Origin: Pseudomonadota bacterium | GTDB lineage: Bacteria > Pseudomonadota > Gammaproteobacteria > Acidithiobacillales > Acidithiobacillaceae | Reading direction: 5' to 3' | NCBI GenBank assembly: GCA_021840785.1 | Contig: JAKBXD010000002.1 | Span: 1-30,652 of the forward strand | Length of the DNA stretch: 30,652 nt | Shown here: positions 17,302 to 30,652 of the stretch, in pieces | Numbering within the stretch: position 1 is the stretch's first letter | How the letters are laid out: every line of letters starts with the position of its first letter | Notes under the pieces: model-generated | What the model saw: only the letters and a program-made list of their open reading frames with translations | Told to the model about the DNA's origin: nothing | Databases searched by the model: none | Made by a program: the position numbers and the translations under genes

Positions 17302-17468
17302 ACGCTCCCTCCTTCCCTTACCTCAGGAATGTGATATCCATTGACGCCGCCTTGTGGCACCCTCCCATATCGACTAACATTTCGAGAGTGAAGGATTCCT
17401 GAACCGGCATGGCTACGATACGTAAACGGAAGGATCGCTGGCAAGCGATGGTGCACTGAAGAGGAATG

Positions 17469-19375
<1,907 letters not shown>

Positions 19376-22662: not shown

Positions 22663-22845
22663 ATGACATATGATTCTGTAGTAAATCACCTACGGTATAG
22701 ATCTCTGCGCAAAGAATTCTTGCGGAACGCTCTAATCTTACATGCTGTAAACCATAAGAAAATAAAATTGGCATGGATAATGCTTAGGCTCAATGGTGTA
22801 ATCCCCCGAGGCTTATGCATCTGGAAGTGGAGAGCACTCTCATAG
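22663..22845 (+). CDS. Possible small upstream ORF of unknown function
   Basis: A 60-residue open frame, very basic, starting MTYDSVVNHLRYRSLRKEFL and ending in tryptophan-containing sequence. GGCGGGG is almost touching the ATG, a poor ribosome spacing. Its stop lies 8 bases before the DUF4214 start, and the AGGA of that gene directly follows the stop codon, so it might be a translated leader. No family is recognised, base use is unlike the neighbours, and chance is a real alternative. Confidence 0.2.
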   Translation: MTYDSVVNHLRYRSLRKEFLRNALILHAVNHKKIKLAWIMLRLNGVIPRGLCIWKWRALS

Positions 22846-22853
22846 GAAATCGC

Positions 22854-23465
22854 ATGAATCTGTATCTCTTGCTCAATCTACCGGATGAAGCGTTTCTACC
22901 CGCAGCCTTTGAAAGCGTCATTGGCCGCGAACCGGATGTTATTGGTCTTGCGCATTATGTTGAGCGGTTGCGCTCCGGTGCCAGCCGTGCGTTGGTGCTG
23001 GCGGAGATGCGAAGTTCCGCGGAAGGGCAGGCGCATGCCGCACACGCGCCCGACCGTGAGCTGGACATTTTGCAGAGACGTTATCGCCGTGTGCGCGGCT
23101 GGCCATTAGGCCGCTGGCGTTGGATTTTCCTGTCACGTTATGCGGCAAGATCTCCGCGTGGGGATTTTGACTGGGCGCTCTGGTTTAGCCATTACTCAGA
23201 GGCGCAGAAACCTAAGCATGCTTCGGTGACGACGGGGCCAGAGACAGAAAATAAACTCGCCGCCATTGAACGGCGTGTCGATGCTTTATCCGCCGTACTG
23301 CAACAGGCGGCACCGTTGCTACGGGAATCAGGCGCAGCAGAGCAAGAGATCGTCTCCATACAGCAAACCGTGTCTGAAGCATATCCTCCAGCAGTACCAC
23401 TGACCGAGGTTTCCTGGGCAGCACGGAGCATCTATGCGCAAATGCTGCAACATATATCCGCCTAG
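22854..23465 (+). CDS. DUF4214-domain protein with coiled coil
   Basis: The 203-residue protein opens with a DUF4214-like segment (about residues 12-60: FLPAAFESVIGREPDVIGLAHYVERLRSG...), a helical motif found in many surface-polysaccharide and S-layer related proteins. A basic, tryptophan-rich middle (GWPLGRWRWIFLSRYAARS) follows, then a probable coiled coil at about residues 132-160 (NKLAAIERRVDALSAVLQQ). No signal peptide or catalytic motif is seen. ATG at 22854 has AGGA seven bases upstream; the longer frame from 22815 lacks one. It leads an operon of glycosyltransferases, starting 27 bases before the triple enzyme, so a scaffold or chain-length partner for the transferases is a reasonable but unproven guess. 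Confidence 0.7.
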   Translation: MNLYLLLNLPDEAFLPAAFESVIGREPDVIGLAHYVERLRSGASRALVLAEMRSSAEGQAHAAHAPDRELDILQRRYRRVRGWPLGRWRWIFLSRYAARSPRGDFDWALWFSHYSEAQKPKHASVTTGPETENKLAAIERRVDALSAVLQQAAPLLRESGAAEQEIVSIQQTVSEAYPPAVPLTEVSWAARSIYAQMLQHISA

Positions 23466-23492: not shown

Positions 23493-26400
23493 ATGCGTAT
23501 TGTCATTGACCTCCAGGGTGCCCAGAACGACAGCAGAAATCGTGGTATCGGGCGCTACTCTTTATCCATCGCGCTGGCGATTGCCAAGAACAAAGGTCCA
23601 CACGAGATTCTCATCATGCTGAGCGCCGCATTTGCGGATACGATTGATGAGATACGTGCAGCTTTTGGTGAATTGTTATCAGATTCGGCGTTTAAAATTT
23701 TTAATCCACTGGGTCCGACACATACCGCCGATCCGCTAAATATCTGGCGACGGGATGCCAGTGAACTATTGTATGAGCATTTTCTCGCCGCGCTAAATCC
23801 GGATGCGGTCATTGTTTGTTCGCTCATGGAAGGGTGGGGTGACCAAACCATTTCGTCGGTGCATAAGGTAAAGCAGAATTATCTCATTGCTCCGGTGCTA
23901 TATGATCTGATTCCCCTGGTGCAGCATCATCAGGATGATCTGGATTGGCCAGAGGCTACACTGGCCTGGTATTTGCGCAAGGTGGACGATTTCCGGCGCA
24001 CGGATTTCGGGCTTTCCATTTCGGAGTCGAGCAAATCCGAGGCGGTCAGCTTCTTGGGTTGTCCCGCGGAAAAGATAACGAATATCTCCGCGGCGGTGTC
24101 AGACCTGTTTCATGAAGTGGTTCTTGAAACCGAGGAGATCGCCGCGCTCAAAGCACAGTACGCCATCGTCAAGCGTTTTGTGCTGACCTCCTCCGCCATT
24201 GAGGAAAGGAAAAATCCGGAGCATCTTATCCGTGCGTTCGCTCTATTGCCAAAGGCTGTACGTAACGACATCCAATTGGTGTTCATCGGTAAATTCACAC
24301 ACCCCGATTATAAGTATTCGCTCCTTGCTCTGGCTGCACAATCAGGTCTCGACGATAACGATGTGCTCTTTACGGGATATGTTCCAGACAACGACCTGGT
24401 TCGGCTGTACGCAGCCTGTGACCTTTTTGTGTTTCCATCACTGCATGAAGGATTCGGCCTACCGGCCTTGGAAGCCATGGCTTGTGGCGCACCCACCATC
24501 GCAAGCGATACGACCAGCCTGCCGGAAGTCATGGGTTGGGATGAGTCGCTATTCGACCCCAATGAACCGCAGTCCATCGCGCACAGTATGGAGCGGGTGC
24601 TCACGAATGAACGATTTCGTCAGCAACTTATCCAGCACGGCTTGCAACAGGCCAAGAAATTTTCCTGGGACCGCAGTGCCCGACTTGCGCTGCAGGCGGT
24701 GGAAGCGGCACATGCCCAGTGGCAGACCCAAAACATGGGCGAATCCGTGCATGGACAACCGCCTCGCCGTCAACGGCCACGTCTGGCCTATTTTTCCTCC
24801 CTGCGAGAGGCCAGGAGCGGCATTGCCGACTATAGCGCCGAATTGTTGCCAGAGTTATCCAGGTACTACGCCATCGAGGTGATCGTCGATCAGGAGGAGC
24901 CCGTCACGGACTCATGGGTGCTGGGGAACGCCACGCTGCGTTCTGTGGCATGGTTTGAGCAGCACGCGTATCACTATGATCGTATCCTGTATCAATTCGG
25001 CAATTCCGAATATCATGCCCATATGTTCAATTTGCTTGAACGCTATCCGGGTGTGGTCGTGCTGCACGATTTTTACCTGAGCGGTGTTCTTGGCTGGGTT
25101 TTGGCGAACCAGCAGCCCAGTGTATGGGATCGGGCTCTGCTGCATGCCCATGGCTGGCCAGCCATGGTGGAGCGCTATCGGGCCGAGAATCAGCGGGATA
25201 TCGCCGAATTGATCGCTAAATATCCCTGCAATCTGCGGGTATTGCAGCAGGCACGAGGAATCGTTGTCCACTCTGATTGTTCTCTCCGAATGGCAAAGCA
25301 GTGGTATGGCGCGGAATTGGCCGCGGATTGGTCAGTCATTCCGCATTTGCGTGTTCCAGTGGTCGATATACCTCGTGCGCAGGCACGGACAGAACTCGGA
25401 TTTACCGATGATATTTTTCTGGTTTGCGCCTTTGGCTTGCTGGGAGAGACCAAGCTCAACCACACACTGATTGAGGCTTGGGCATCGTCCGCATTGGCGA
25501 AAAATCCGCGTTGCCGATTGGTATTCGTGGGCAAACTGCCGGATGGCGGTAGCTATGGCGACCGATTGCGACGCTTGCTGAAATCCATTCAGGGACACAT
25601 CACCATCACGGGTTGGGCGGATGGTGCGACCTATAAACGATACTTGGCGGCTGCCGATTTGGCGGTACAACTCCGTACCCAATCGCGGGGAGAAACATCG
25701 GGCACAGTGCTGGATTGCATGAATTACGGTCTGCCCACCATCGTCAATGCCAATGGGAGCATGGCCGATTTACCGTCGAATGTGGTGTATCGCCTACCCG
25801 AAGCGTTGAATGTCGACGCCTTGAGTGAAGCGTTGGAACAACTCTATGACCAACCGGCGTTACGCAGCGAACTGGGTCGACGTGCCGCGGCACATATTCG
25901 GAAGAATCACCTGCCCAGAAAGTGCGCTGCGCAATATGCCCAGGCGATCGAGCGTTTTTATGATGCGTCCGAGGAGGGCGCCCAGGGGCTGGTCAAACAG
26001 TTGCAATCACTGCCCCCCCCACCGCATCCCGGTGACTTGGTAGCCTTGGCGGAGCACGTGGCGCAGATTTACCCCCCACGTCGCCCAACCATACAGCAGC
26101 TCCTGCTGGATATTTCTGGGTTGGCCCGGCACGACGGTAAATCCGGTATCGAGCGTGTCGTGCGCAGCGTGCTGCAGGAATTGCTACGGAATCCGCCGGA
26201 TGGATATCGGGTGGAACCCATCTATGCCACACCGGAACACGGTTATCGTTACGCCCGCAAATTCACGGCGCGACTCCTGGAGTTGGGAGATTTTTCACTC
26301 AGCGACGATCCCGTCTGCGCAACCATGGGCGACGTATTTTTTTCGCCGGACTGGGTACCGGATATCGTGCGCATTCATGAACCTGCATTATCCATGTGGC

Positions 26401-28130
26401 GGTTGCAGGGGATCAAAATGATCTTTATGGTTTACGATGTTTTGCCATTGACGCTTCCCGAAACGACGCACATCTCCGTACACGAAGCCCATATGCGTTG
26501 GCTGCTGACATTGGCGAAGATCAGTTCTGGCCTCATCTGCATTTCAGCCACCGTGATGGCAAGCCTCAAAGAGTGGCTCCGTTTATTCGGCCCGCAAACA
26601 GGTCATTCGATTCCATTGGGTTGGACGCCATTGGGGAGCGATGTGGTCGATCCCACAACCAGCGAGTCCTTTCATGCCACTTCCGAGCAGTCGGCGCAGT
26701 TGGCGGCCATCCGGCGCTTTCCGGCCTTTTTGATGGTGGGCACCGTGGAACCGCGCAAGGGCCATGCTCAGACCCTCGCCGCCTTCGACAGGTTATGGGC
26801 TCAGGGCATCGAGTGTAATCTGGTCATCGTGGGCAAGCAGGGTTGGAAAGTGGATGAACTCGCCGAGCGTCTGCTGACGCATCCACAGCGTGAACGGCAT
26901 CTGTTCTGGTTGCAAGGCATCGACGACGACCTGTTGGAGCAGGTCTACGCGGCCAGCCGCTGCCTGATCGCGGCATCACTGGATGAAGGTTTTGGGCTAC
27001 CGCTGATCGAAGCGGCACGACATAAATTGCCCATCCTCGCGCGTGATATCCCGGTATTCCGCGAGGTGGCGGGAGAACACGCCAGTTATTTCAGCGGACT
27101 CGCGCCGGAAGATTTGTCCAGGGCGATTGTGCGATGGCTGGAGCAAGAGCATGCCGGCACCGCCGTGAAATCGGACGCGATGCCCTGGTTGACCTGGGCG
27201 GCAGCCACCCAAGAGATGCTGGACGTGATCTTGAACGATCAGTGGCAAGACCTCTGGACACCCGTCAAGGATGACGACCTTGTGGCGCGGCACTGGGGGT
27301 CGGATCACCGCGTGATGACAGTCGTCGGCGAGCGTATCGGCACGACGATCCGGAGCACCGGTGTTCCAGGTTACCTGACCTATGGTCCCGCGAGATTATC
27401 GCTCAGGGTCGGGAGTTACATAGCCACCTGGACGGGCCATGTGGGGCTTGGGGGCTGTGACGATGGCGCGCATATGGACGTGAGCTACCAACAGGGCGCC
27501 AAGATGCTTGCTCGTGCTGACTTGGCGAGCCTAGCGCAAAATGATGGCCGTTTTACTGTTACCTTGCCGTTTATCCTGGATGAAGATCGGCATGATCTGG
27601 AGGTCAGGGTATGGGTGGGAGAAAGGAGCGACGTCTCTCTGGATAAATTGGAGATCCGCAAAGCCACATCTGAACCGGCGTTGAAGCCTCCGAGAGCGGT
27701 CGCAACCACCACAGCCATTCAAGCGACGTCTTTTCCTGCCCGAACTTATCGCTACTGGGCCACACACCCCAAAATGACCACATTCGCGGGGTACCCCGTT
27801 GGTCGCAGCGTGCATGCCACGGGAACGCAGGGATGGTTGCTTTCAGGCCCGTATGTGGAATTGCCCAAAGGGCGGTATCTGGCCACGGTCCGTGGCGCAT
27901 CCCCGGCGGTCGGTGGTTTGGACGATTGCCGGATGGATGTGGCGTGGAATAAAGGCCTGGATATCGCTATCGCGCAGCCCCTCTATGCCACTAAAGCCGC
28001 GTCCTCCTGTGAATTGGGCCGAGCGGCTTTTGAATTGACTGCCTATGCGTCGGATGTGGAGGTAAGGGTGTATGTGGGGAGTGGGATTTCACTGCGTATC
28101 GATGGCATCGTCTTGGAGGAGGTGGCATGA
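23493..28130 (+). CDS. Three-domain GT4-type glycosyltransferase with two C-terminal beta modules
   Basis: The 1545-residue protein starts MRIVIDLQGAQNDSRNRGIGRYS. Domain 1 (about 1-412) is a complete GT4 unit with IEERKNPEHLIRAF and an E-x7-E box at Glu319/Glu327 (HEGFGLPALEAM). Domain 2 (about 428-826) is GT4-like, with FGLLGETKLNHTLIEAW and RGETSGTVLDCMNYGLPT; the first Glu is shifted to Glu734 and the second is Asp741, so its chemistry may differ or be lost. Domain 3 (about 870-1246) is GT4 with VGTVEPRKGHAQTLAAF and LDEGFGLPLIEAA. Two related modules follow at about 1267-1390 and 1420-1544. It should build a repeating glycan at the cytoplasmic membrane face. AGGAAAC precedes the ATG, and the stop overlaps the next start (ATGA). 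Confidence 0.88.
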   Translation: MRIVIDLQGAQNDSRNRGIGRYSLSIALAIAKNKGPHEILIMLSAAFADTIDEIRAAFGELLSDSAFKIFNPLGPTHTADPLNIWRRDASELLYEHFLAALNPDAVIVCSLMEGWGDQTISSVHKVKQNYLIAPVLYDLIPLVQHHQDDLDWPEATLAWYLRKVDDFRRTDFGLSISESSKSEAVSFLGCPAEKITNISAAVSDLFHEVVLETEEIAALKAQYAIVKRFVLTSSAIEERKNPEHLIRAFALLPKAVRNDIQLVFIGKFTHPDYKYSLLALAAQSGLDDNDVLFTGYVPDNDLVRLYAACDLFVFPSLHEGFGLPALEAMACGAPTIASDTTSLPEVMGWDESLFDPNEPQSIAHSMERVLTNERFRQQLIQHGLQQAKKFSWDRSARLALQAVEAAHAQWQTQNMGESVHGQPPRRQRPRLAYFSSLREARSGIADYSAELLPELSRYYAIEVIVDQEEPVTDSWVLGNATLRSVAWFEQHAYHYDRILYQFGNSEYHAHMFNLLERYPGVVVLHDFYLSGVLGWVLANQQPSVWDRALLHAHGWPAMVERYRAENQRDIAELIAKYPCNLRVLQQARGIVVHSDCSLRMAKQWYGAELAADWSVIPHLRVPVVDIPRAQARTELGFTDDIFLVCAFGLLGETKLNHTLIEAWASSALAKNPRCRLVFVGKLPDGGSYGDRLRRLLKSIQGHITITGWADGATYKRYLAAADLAVQLRTQSRGETSGTVLDCMNYGLPTIVNANGSMADLPSNVVYRLPEALNVDALSEALEQLYDQPALRSELGRRAAAHIRKNHLPRKCAAQYAQAIERFYDASEEGAQGLVKQLQSLPPPPHPGDLVALAEHVAQIYPPRRPTIQQLLLDISGLARHDGKSGIERVVRSVLQELLRNPPDGYRVEPIYATPEHGYRYARKFTARLLELGDFSLSDDPVCATMGDVFFSPDWVPDIVRIHEPALSMWRLQGIKMIFMVYDVLPLTLPETTHISVHEAHMRWLLTLAKISSGLICISATVMASLKEWLRLFGPQTGHSIPLGWTPLGSDVVDPTTSESFHATSEQSAQLAAIRRFPAFLMVGTVEPRKGHAQTLAAFDRLWAQGIECNLVIVGKQGWKVDELAERLLTHPQRERHLFWLQGIDDDLLEQVYAASRCLIAASLDEGFGLPLIEAARHKLPILARDIPVFREVAGEHASYFSGLAPEDLSRAIVRWLEQEHAGTAVKSDAMPWLTWAAATQEMLDVILNDQWQDLWTPVKDDDLVARHWGSDHRVMTVVGERIGTTIRSTGVPGYLTYGPARLSLRVGSYIATWTGHVGLGGCDDGAHMDVSYQQGAKMLARADLASLAQNDGRFTVTLPFILDEDRHDLEVRVWVGERSDVSLDKLEIRKATSEPALKPPRAVATTTAIQATSFPARTYRYWATHPKMTTFAGYPVGRSVHATGTQGWLLSGPYVELPKGRYLATVRGASPAVGGLDDCRMDVAWNKGLDIAIAQPLYATKAASSCELGRAAFELTAYASDVEVRVYVGSGISLRIDGIVLEEVA
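27291..27662 (+). repeat. Beta module copy A (protein-level repeat)
   Basis: Residues about 1267-1390 of the triple glycosyltransferase. Landmarks shared with copies B and C: STG..GYLTYGP, then L..GSY, a central D...MDV, and DLEVRVWVG near the end, closing with LEIRK. The pattern of alternating hydrophobic residues suggests a beta sandwich, possibly sugar-binding. That fold is inferred, not recognised. Confidence 0.75.
27750..28124 (+). repeat. Beta module copy B (protein-level repeat)
   Basis: Residues about 1420-1544, ending the triple glycosyltransferase. Shared landmarks: ATG..GWLLSGPY, L..GRY, LDDCRMDV, DVEVRVYVG and a closing IVLEEV. It is joined to copy A by about 30 residues of proline/alanine/threonine-rich linker. 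Confidence 0.75.
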
Positions 28131-29254
28131 AGCCCCAGTTTGTCGCCCGTTTTTTGGGGTCCGATGCCGCATTATGCACTGAAATCGGACAGCGCAAGGG
28201 ACATGCCCTGGTGAGTACCGGACAGGCGGGGCATTTACTGTACGGGCCATATATGGCGCTGGAGCCGGGGCATTACCGAGTGGATCTGTACGGCAGCGCC
28301 GCCAGTGTGAGCGATGCCTTTGTGGATGTGTGTATGGAAACCGGTCAGCGCATCCTCGCTGAGCAAGGGCTGCAAGCGACGATGGATGGGCAGGAAGGCC
28401 TGCTGGTCGCGCTGAGCTTCGCCGTCGAGGCGGAGTGCCAGGATATGGAAGTGCGCGTTCGCGTGGGTCGGCACCACAAGATTCAGCTGGGATTGATGGA
28501 AATATATAAAGTTGCGGATTTTCCGAGAGTCGGAATTGTTGTGGTTACCTATGGAATGGTTCCGACACGACTGGTTGACTCCATACATTCCAAACATATG
28601 TGTGAATGGTACGTGCATCATCATGGTTCGGAATCATTGGTGGATGACATAACTCATCTCTTTGCGGAGAGGCGGTCTCATCTGCATTTCCACTGTGAAA
28701 ATAGGGGGCTGGCAAAAAGCTGGAATGACGGAATCATTGAATCCACGAAATCCGGGAATGATATCACAGTGGTCATCAATGATGATGTTGAGTTTCTGCA
28801 GACCGGATTTGACGACTGGATTGAATTTATACTGACGCATAGAGATCATGGGCTGATTTTTTTGACTGGCGAAGAACCGCAGGAGGATGGCACAACGGTT
28901 GTCAGGCCGCAGGATTTCGCCTGTTTCAGTTTTGGGCCGCAAGCCAGAAAATTGGTCGGCGCCTTTGATGAAGAATTTACCCCGGCCTATTATGAGGATA
29001 TGGATTACATAGTGCGTGCATCCTTGTGTAACATTTCAACGCATACCGATGAACGCATATTATGCAGACACGAAAGAAGCTCGACAAAAAGACAGAATGT
29101 GGAGATTTATGAGAAGGTATCTTACTTCTGGCAAAAAAATAGGGAGCTAATGATAACCAAGTGGGGGGATGCAACGCCGGGGGTTGGGACTTATTCATAT
29201 CCCTTTGACGATGCAAAAAACAGCATATTCATTCCTTTCAGGGAGGCGATTTAA
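28127..29254 (+). CDS. GT2-family glycosyltransferase with N-terminal beta module
   Basis: The 375-residue protein has beta module copy C (about 7-128) followed by a GT-A fold transferase (about 133-350). Key parts: VGIVVVTYG at the nucleotide-binding start, NRGLAKSWNDGI, the metal-binding INDDVEF with Asp219-Asp220, and the acceptor-side GAFDEEFTPAYYEDMDY with Glu290-Asp291. It resembles rhamnosyl- or galactosyltransferases of GT2; the sugar is unknown. ATG overlaps the previous stop. The part encoding the module is GC-rich (39 of 60 bases in 28261-28320), while the transferase part is AT-rich (23 of 60 in 28501-28560; 21 of 60 in 29101-29160), suggesting the two were joined from different sources. 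Confidence 0.85.
   Translation: MKPQFVARFLGSDAALCTEIGQRKGHALVSTGQAGHLLYGPYMALEPGHYRVDLYGSAASVSDAFVDVCMETGQRILAEQGLQATMDGQEGLLVALSFAVEAECQDMEVRVRVGRHHKIQLGLMEIYKVADFPRVGIVVVTYGMVPTRLVDSIHSKHMCEWYVHHHGSESLVDDITHLFAERRSHLHFHCENRGLAKSWNDGIIESTKSGNDITVVINDDVEFLQTGFDDWIEFILTHRDHGLIFLTGEEPQEDGTTVVRPQDFACFSFGPQARKLVGAFDEEFTPAYYEDMDYIVRASLCNISTHTDERILCRHERSSTKRQNVEIYEKVSYFWQKNRELMITKWGDATPGVGTYSYPFDDAKNSIFIPFREAI
28145..28510 (+). repeat. Beta module copy C (protein-level repeat, in the next gene)
   Basis: Residues about 7-128 of the GT2 protein. Shared landmarks: STG..GHLLYGPY, L..GHY, FVDV, DMEVRVRVG and a closing LMEIYKV. It occupies the whole N-terminus of that protein, directly across the ATGA junction from copy B. 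Confidence 0.75.
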
Positions 29255-29273
29255 TGATTGCCTCCATTGCGGC

Positions 29274-30652
29274 TTGCGGCTGATCGTCGTCGCGTGGGCC
29301 CTCGTAGCCCTTGGCGGATGCGCGTCGGCGCTCTCGCCCAGCATGTCCGCTGCGTCGGCCTCAACGAGGACGTCCGTTTTGCCAGCACATGTTCTTTTGC
29401 CCCAGATCAAAAGAACATACCCGACCCTCCAGCCGAAGATGCCACCGCCGGCCCGGCACCTGTATGTGGCGAATATCAGCGCACTCCCGCCAGATCAAAA
29501 ACGGCTGCTGGTGACGCTACAAGGGATTGTCAACCGCACCCAGCCGCGTATTTACCTGATCTGGAAACCGGATGACCAGTTCTGGCTACGCCAGATGCAA
29601 AAACAGGGACAAACCGGCACGCCGATTCGGGTGAAACAGCCATTGTCGCTGGTACGGATTTTTCGCGGTGACATACGGGGCGCGGTGATCCCGGACCCGA
29701 AGGTGTATATCTCTCCGGACATCGCGGTGGATATTGCGGCGGTGGACCGCCTGGTGGTGGCCACGCCCGCCCTGGCGCGGCAACTGAATGTGCCGATCAA
29801 GGTAGATTTGCGCGGGCGTTTCAAGAATGACGCGGAAGCCCTGCGCTACCTGCGGACACGATTGGCGCCGCGGATGAATCCCTTTCTGTTTTTATGTTTG
29901 GACCCAGAGCTTTTGGCCGATGGCGCGGAGGATCAGATCATTGCCGCGCGGGGGATGACGTTTTGGGTAACAGGTCCCAGGGAACAGCGGAAGCCGGGAG
30001 CAGACATGGCCGAGGAAAAACAACAGATAGAAAAGCTCTTTGCCGCCACGCCGCTGGATGGGGTGGTGCGGGGCTTCTGGTGGAACGGCGACGGTGTTGG
30101 CCTCGGGGAAGGTGAGGGGGTCAAACTGGCGTCGGAATTCGGCAAGGTCACCGTGGTCAGCAATCATGTGCATAATCTTTCCGTATTCAGCGGCGTGCGG
30201 TTGGCGACGCTACGGCAGAAGTCCGCCCCACCTCCGCCACTGGATCGATCCAAGGTGTATCTCTCGCTGACCGTTTCCGATGGCGACAACTTGAATACCT
30301 GGCAGAATTTTTTCTGGCGTTGGTTCAAAAGCCCGTACCATGGCAAATTCGCCGTCGGGTGGACGATGGGACCGACCCTCATCGATGTGGCGCCTACGCT
30401 GGCGGAATGGTACTACCGGCATGCTGGACCGGAAGATGAGTTCATAGGGGGTGTTTCCGGTATCGGTTACATCTATCCCTCCGTCTGGGCGGAGCGCACG
30501 GATCATCCCCATGCCGCCCTGCAGCATTTTTATCGATGGACCGGGGATTACCTGCGGCGGATGGATATGCGCACTTTTCGTACGCATCAGGCTTTCACGC
30601 CGGATAATCAAGACGCCATGCAAGACATCGCGCAGGCCGCGGCGGCGCTGCC
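29274..30652 (+). CDS. GxGYxYP-family putative lipoprotein (runs off the window)
   Basis: 459 codons are visible and the frame is open at the edge. From TTG at 29274 the protein reads MRLIVVAWALVALGGC, a lipoprotein signal with lipobox LGGC and Cys16. A proline-rich spacer follows, then LYVANISALPPDQKRLLVTLQGIVNR. The family signature GIGYIYP is at residues 396-402, and SDGDNLNTW precedes it. GxGYxYP proteins are proposed glycoside hydrolases; no activity is proven as far as I know. It would be anchored in the envelope and could trim or remodel the glycan made by the operon. The TTG has no ribosome site, whereas a strong one serves an out-of-frame ATG at 29254, so a frameshift near the start is possible. 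Confidence 0.78.
   Translation, partial: MRLIVVAWALVALGGCASALSPSMSAASASTRTSVLPAHVLLPQIKRTYPTLQPKMPPPARHLYVANISALPPDQKRLLVTLQGIVNRTQPRIYLIWKPDDQFWLRQMQKQGQTGTPIRVKQPLSLVRIFRGDIRGAVIPDPKVYISPDIAVDIAAVDRLVVATPALARQLNVPIKVDLRGRFKNDAEALRYLRTRLAPRMNPFLFLCLDPELLADGAEDQIIAARGMTFWVTGPREQRKPGADMAEEKQQIEKLFAATPLDGVVRGFWWNGDGVGLGEGEGVKLASEFGKVTVVSNHVHNLSVFSGVRLATLRQKSAPPPPLDRSKVYLSLTVSDGDNLNTWQNFFWRWFKSPYHGKFAVGWTMGPTLIDVAPTLAEWYYRHAGPEDEFIGGVSGIGYIYPSVWAERTDHPHAALQHFYRWTGDYLRRMDMRTFRTHQAFTPDNQDAMQDIAQAAAAL

Follow-up and report, generated by a model that had tools for sequence, protein, structure and literature searches.

Two adjacent glycosyltransferase genes lie near the end of the stretch analysed here, which comprises 30,652 nucleotides of contig JAKBXD010000002.1 (assembly GCA_021840785.1, family Acidithiobacillaceae) and is hereafter called the window. 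They share an ATGA in which the stop codon of the first (TGA) and the start codon of the second (ATG) overlap, and they encode proteins of 1545 and 375 amino acids. The Pfam family Glycos_transf_1 matched three stretches of the 1545-aa protein (E 5.6e-76). For residues from about 131 to 370 of the 375-aa protein, the structural matches are GT-A glycosyltransferases, and a Pfam scan of this part, below called the window's GT2, matched no family. In addition to these enzyme units, the two proteins carry three copies (M1, M2 and M3) of a module, which is the subject of this analysis (Table 1).

Table 1. Features of the window discussed in the text
Feature	Coordinates	Strand	Basis and remarks
Two nucleotide-sugar enzymes	17466..18359 and 18338..19375	+	Pfam; both match GDP_Man_Dehyd
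DUF4214 protein	22815..23465	+	Pfam; directly upstream of the 1545-aa gene
1545-aa protein	23493..28130	+	Open reading frame; three GT4 glycosyltransferase units, then M1 and M2
Module M1	27282..27665	+	Residues 1264-1391 of the 1545-aa protein; homology to M2 and M3, profile match
Module M2	27747..28127	+	Residues 1419-1545, the C-terminal end of the 1545-aa protein; profile match
ATGA stop/start overlap	28127..28130	+	Sequence; recurs in genome G002
375-aa protein	28127..29254	+	Open reading frame; M3, then a GT-A type glycosyltransferase
Module M3	28139..28516	+	Residues 5-130 of the 375-aa protein; homology to M1 and M2
GxGYxYP protein, putative glycoside hydrolase	29169..30650	+	Pfam; continues beyond the window end

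The three copies are homologous. Identical residues number 36 of 125 between M1 and M2, 44 of 119 between M1 and M3, and 38 of 124 between M2 and M3, and the pair scores (124, 155 and 122, respectively) compare with maxima of 18.5, 18.0 and 9.5 among 300 shuffles for each module pair, which rules out chance similarity. The original prediction of a threefold repeat across a gene boundary with an ATGA overlap is borne out, as are the shared motifs it listed: in the order M1, M2 and M3, these read STG, ATG and STG; GPA, GPY and GPY; GSY, GRY and GHY; MDV, MDV and VDV in the core; and DLEVRVWVG, DVEVRVYVG and DMEVRVRVG at the end. R8, Y42, D67, E108 and R110 (numbering of the 375-aa protein) are nearly invariant module positions. 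The N-terminal motif is WATH in M2-type modules and WGSD or WGAD in the M1-type and most other modules, a difference that possibly reflects a different ligand.

Judged from structure prediction (pLDDT 95.3 for M3), the segment would be a jelly-roll module of about 125 residues resembling carbohydrate-binding modules (CBMs). The predicted model is a discrete β-sandwich of a known CBM fold and, as in CBMs, the module is appended to carbohydrate-active enzymes, for example, to GT4 units in protein P0001 and to GT2 in P0006. No CBM family was found among the 11 Pfam families listed at E <= 10 for 27 scanned modules, NCBIfam searches of the whole carrier proteins returned no family matching the module, and a sequence search of PDB chains at E <= 10 gave no match for it. 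A literature search, limited, as throughout, to open-access papers, showed no description of the module among the papers it listed. The earlier claim of a beta module outside the named families therefore agrees with both the Pfam and the NCBIfam results, and the fold of this so far unnamed module type is, according to the model, one already known from CBMs. A library of viral structures produced jelly-roll matches, many of them to phage tail proteins, which gave no closer lead to the identity of the module.

The same genome encodes a paralogue of the 1545-aa protein (C262:5164-9765; 53% identical across residues 1-1543) that likewise ends in two modules. Paralogue module 2 is identical to M2 at 71 of 126 positions (56%); module 1 is identical to M1 at 54 of 123 and to M3 at 52 of 123. 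The gene for a methyltransferase with a diverged C-terminal module directly precedes the paralogue, and a Capsule_synth gene (Pfam) lies beside it. Separately, a protein in a 469-aa frame at G000:C76:2901-4094 shares 40% identity with the third GT4 unit (residues 854-1258). Assembly G000 divides the window: the module genes are on G000:C208, and the window is placed at G000:C212, partly beyond the contig.

Beyond this genome, a profile of five modules, narrow enough to miss diverged copies, matched 9 of the 29 family genomes, the match in G004 being a fragment with a stop inside (8.1e-5). Among 369 class genomes, wider profiles matched 6, three of them weakly (1.6e-4 to 9.5e-4), and among 398 phylum genomes they matched 7; the class and phylum draws share some genomes, and only 10 or 11 candidates were scored where there were many. 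A scan for one peptide pattern led to confirmed modules in 6 of 15 stretches, including those of Thiomonas delicata, a Moraxellaceae metagenome-assembled genome (MAG) and a Campylobacterales MAG. Copy number, one of the differences between homologous loci that the original prediction had proposed looking for, does vary. Carrier enzymes have one to three copies, with two in L040 and L041 and one in L035, L036, L038 and L039; in L034 (to which L042 is identical) and L043, a single module follows the GT4 units and precedes a fourth, glycosyltransferase-like unit of the same chain. In G017 (L037, L074), an in-frame TAG separates the single module from the GT4 array; the gene may be either broken or naturally split.

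The enzymes attached to the module are of several types, most of which build or decorate glycans. Behind it stand GT2, a DUF6492 protein, GT2 plus a methyltransferase (with an M3-type module, in P0006) or a sulfotransferase-like protein, and BLAST gave no significant match among the cargo parts of P0002, P0006, L034 and L043 (best E 0.46), with remote GT-A kinship possible. Conversely, the window's GT2 type, present in 2 of the 29 family genomes, occurs in P0020 and P0024 without a module match. In G006, a GT4 array with three modules comes before a sulfotransferase-like protein that carries two. From the latter onwards (L032 11213-16524), the next proteins are a methyltransferase, a PAPS_reduct-domain protein and a GTPase/APS-kinase protein. 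This gene set suggests a sulfated polymer; the sulfotransferase assignment, at E 8.2e-4, is weak and under the Pfam cut-off, and the literature search found no paper on polysaccharide sulfotransferases with CBMs. Within 20 kb, G002 has a window-type pair with an adjoining GxGYxYP gene, as in the window, together with a protein of the paralogue type and a methyltransferase bearing a diverged module. Distant copies are C-terminal on polytopic membrane proteins (hydropathy; profile comparison 98.7%) and on Sulfatase-family membrane proteins (97.0%, for the C-terminal module part only), and the latter matches are likely the module (domain E values from hmmsearch between about 1e-6 and 1e-5). Both sets were gathered with module profiles, so their discoveries are not independent; membrane proteins of these kinds go by the names GT-C and OpgB. 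The open reading frames of P0016, P0017, L038, L039 and L032 end in strongly basic tails rich in K, R and N, which the 1545-aa protein does not have; contact with a membrane or a partner is a possible role.

This distribution bears on two alternative roles. The original prediction had allowed for docking of the enzymes to each other; in such a scheme, modules on different enzymes would contact one another, or a shared scaffold protein, and hold the enzymes in one complex. With the wide 27-row profile, the six genomes searched hold six modules (G002), five (G006), four (G012) or one (G003, G016 and G017). G002, G006 and G012 thus each have two or more potential partners that bear modules, as docking would have it, but G003, G016 and G017 have one module match genome-wide even with the widest profile, G003 and G016 being single contigs with completeness of 99 and 100%. 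Such genomes exclude obligate pairwise docking of modules, and distant copies end polytopic and Sulfatase-family membrane proteins outside polysaccharide loci. Docking is therefore not general, and we consider it unlikely as the main role; self-association of modules or an unrelated scaffold is possible. A structural spacer that folds and separates catalytic units without a ligand of its own would suit L034 and L043, where the module lies between such units. However, the module is terminal in P0001, P0018, L032, L035, L040 and L054, tandem copies occur with no following catalytic unit to space, and polar positions are nearly invariant, which makes this role very improbable.

The history of the copies was analysed with a module tree of 57 rows, 53 of them distinct (four near-duplicates: one in L039, two in L040 and one in L043). 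P0003, P0007, P0021, P0022, the L007 and L042 copies and weak-score rows were left out of the tree, as were L037 and the G011 and G012 C150 modules from its sources. M1 (10 rows, support 100/99), M2 (12 rows, 100/99) and M3 (6 rows, 95/98) each form a clade, as do the P0016-P0018 group (7 rows, 99/98) and, with weaker support, a Thiomonas-type group (5 rows, 97/72). Because M1 and M2 each have a supported clade, they are old positional copies rather than recent repeats; M3 may be nearest to either M1 or paralogue module 1, support here being weak. The original prediction had offered two origins for the gene boundary, splitting of one longer protein and module duplication. Under splitting, GT4 units, modules and GT2 would once have formed one chain, later cut at the ATGA. 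Fused GT4-module-glycosyltransferase proteins are indeed known from L034 and L043. In P0021, the window's GT2 type is combined with a Thiomonas-type module, and the N-terminus of this protein appears to be out of frame. Yet BLAST finds no similarity between the window's GT2 and the fourth enzymes of L034 and L043 (best E 0.64; remote GT-A kinship possible), the modules of these fused chains fall outside the M3 clade, that clade is separate from the Thiomonas-type modules, and no single chain was seen with a GT4 array, several modules and the window's GT2. Splitting thus appears decidedly improbable, and old module duplication with exchange of the attached enzyme would, from the sequences, explain the boundary better. 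P0022 looks chimeric: its residues 5-54 share 78% identity with the M3-type module of P0005, and residues 55-131 reach no more than 38% with any of the modules compared, the Thiomonas type being nearest. Fast divergence of the second half is an alternative; an assembly error is disfavoured because the source table has P0022 on 15 contigs.

We consider a glycan-holding module on polysaccharide-assembly enzymes the best explanation overall, and a fairly probable one. The module would bind the nascent glycan, the bound chain would be kept close to the active sites, and several enzymes would work on one chain through their modules. The glycan binding proposed in the original prediction is plausible because the predicted fold is CBM-like and the module is spread over different carbohydrate enzymes; we infer both the binding and its effect on chain retention. 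More tentatively, the constant module might act as a plug-in port that marks assembly-line enzymes, with the cargo swapped by recombination in or at the module, thereby re-decorating the surface polymer. P0006, in which an M3-type module bears unrelated cargo, and P0022 would be such exchanges. The module may also mark a site of polysaccharide-enzyme exchange between bacteria, and it serves as a marker for finding more enzymes of such pathways.

Related loci have several neighbouring genes in common with the window. DUF4214 genes also flank relatives in L032, L033, L039 and L043 (Pfam); the literature search found no paper linking DUF4214 with capsule glycosyltransferases. A pair of nucleotide-sugar enzymes like that of the window lies beside relatives in L039 and L043, and other neighbours include FkbM methyltransferases and a ManC-like protein. 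L032 and L039 contain genes for an ABC-2 permease and an ABC ATPase, and L043 contains a permease gene; no ABC transporter was found among the 22 window proteins scanned with Pfam, a subset of its open reading frames. From the related loci, assembly of the polysaccharide in the cytosol followed by export appears plausible. A GT4 protein is likewise among the window's Pfam matches, and the listed GxGYxYP frame begins 86 bases within the 3' end of the 375-aa gene (29169-29254). The second GT4 unit of the 1545-aa protein (window 25689-25719) reads GETSGTVLD in place of the EGFGLPxxE of units 1 and 3; this unit may lack activity or rely on a different residue pattern.

Among known proteins, the galactofuranosyltransferase GlfT2, which has an N-terminal beta domain, ranks at the top of the Foldseek list for the complete 375-aa model (315 residues aligned). 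The order of parts agrees, an N-terminal part followed by a GT-A unit, but the overall rmsd is about 13 Å and residues 1-39 are poorly modelled; an alignment of the GT2 proteins searched against PDB sequences gave no GlfT2 match, only unrelated ones with E values of 0.17 or higher. CBM-fold modules are most familiar from glycan-degrading enzymes and from transporters that read finished chains. Among the closest known systems are CBM6, CBM35, CBM4, CBM16 and a porphyran-binding module; the window's module has no sequence match to Pfam CBM families, and its carriers here are synthetic enzymes, unlike the degradative carriers of those modules. One unnamed module on several chain-building and chain-decorating enzymes of a locus, partly in tandem, offers a direct handle on how soluble glycosyltransferases stay on a growing chain. 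According to one report, the C-terminal CBM of the GT-C enzyme ORF12 (GT136) binds O-polysaccharide but is dispensable for activity, and the CBMs of EmbC and AftD contact the acceptor (PMC11127046). As described there, these enzymes likewise have a CBM-fold domain on a glycan-building enzyme, but they are GT-C membrane enzymes, whereas the carriers here are mainly GT4 arrays with tandem modules; the likeness is one of description only. Another paper describes C-terminal CBMs of Wzt, in O-antigen ABC transporters, and a single CBM predicted for a terminator enzyme (PMC11231755). The Wzt CBM sits on the transporter ATPase, whereas all modules found here are on other proteins, the ATPases of L032 and L039 (217-218 aa) matching only ABC_tran and MeaB in Pfam. 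As described in that paper, Wzt resembles the present system in having a CBM tied to a polysaccharide that is made before export.
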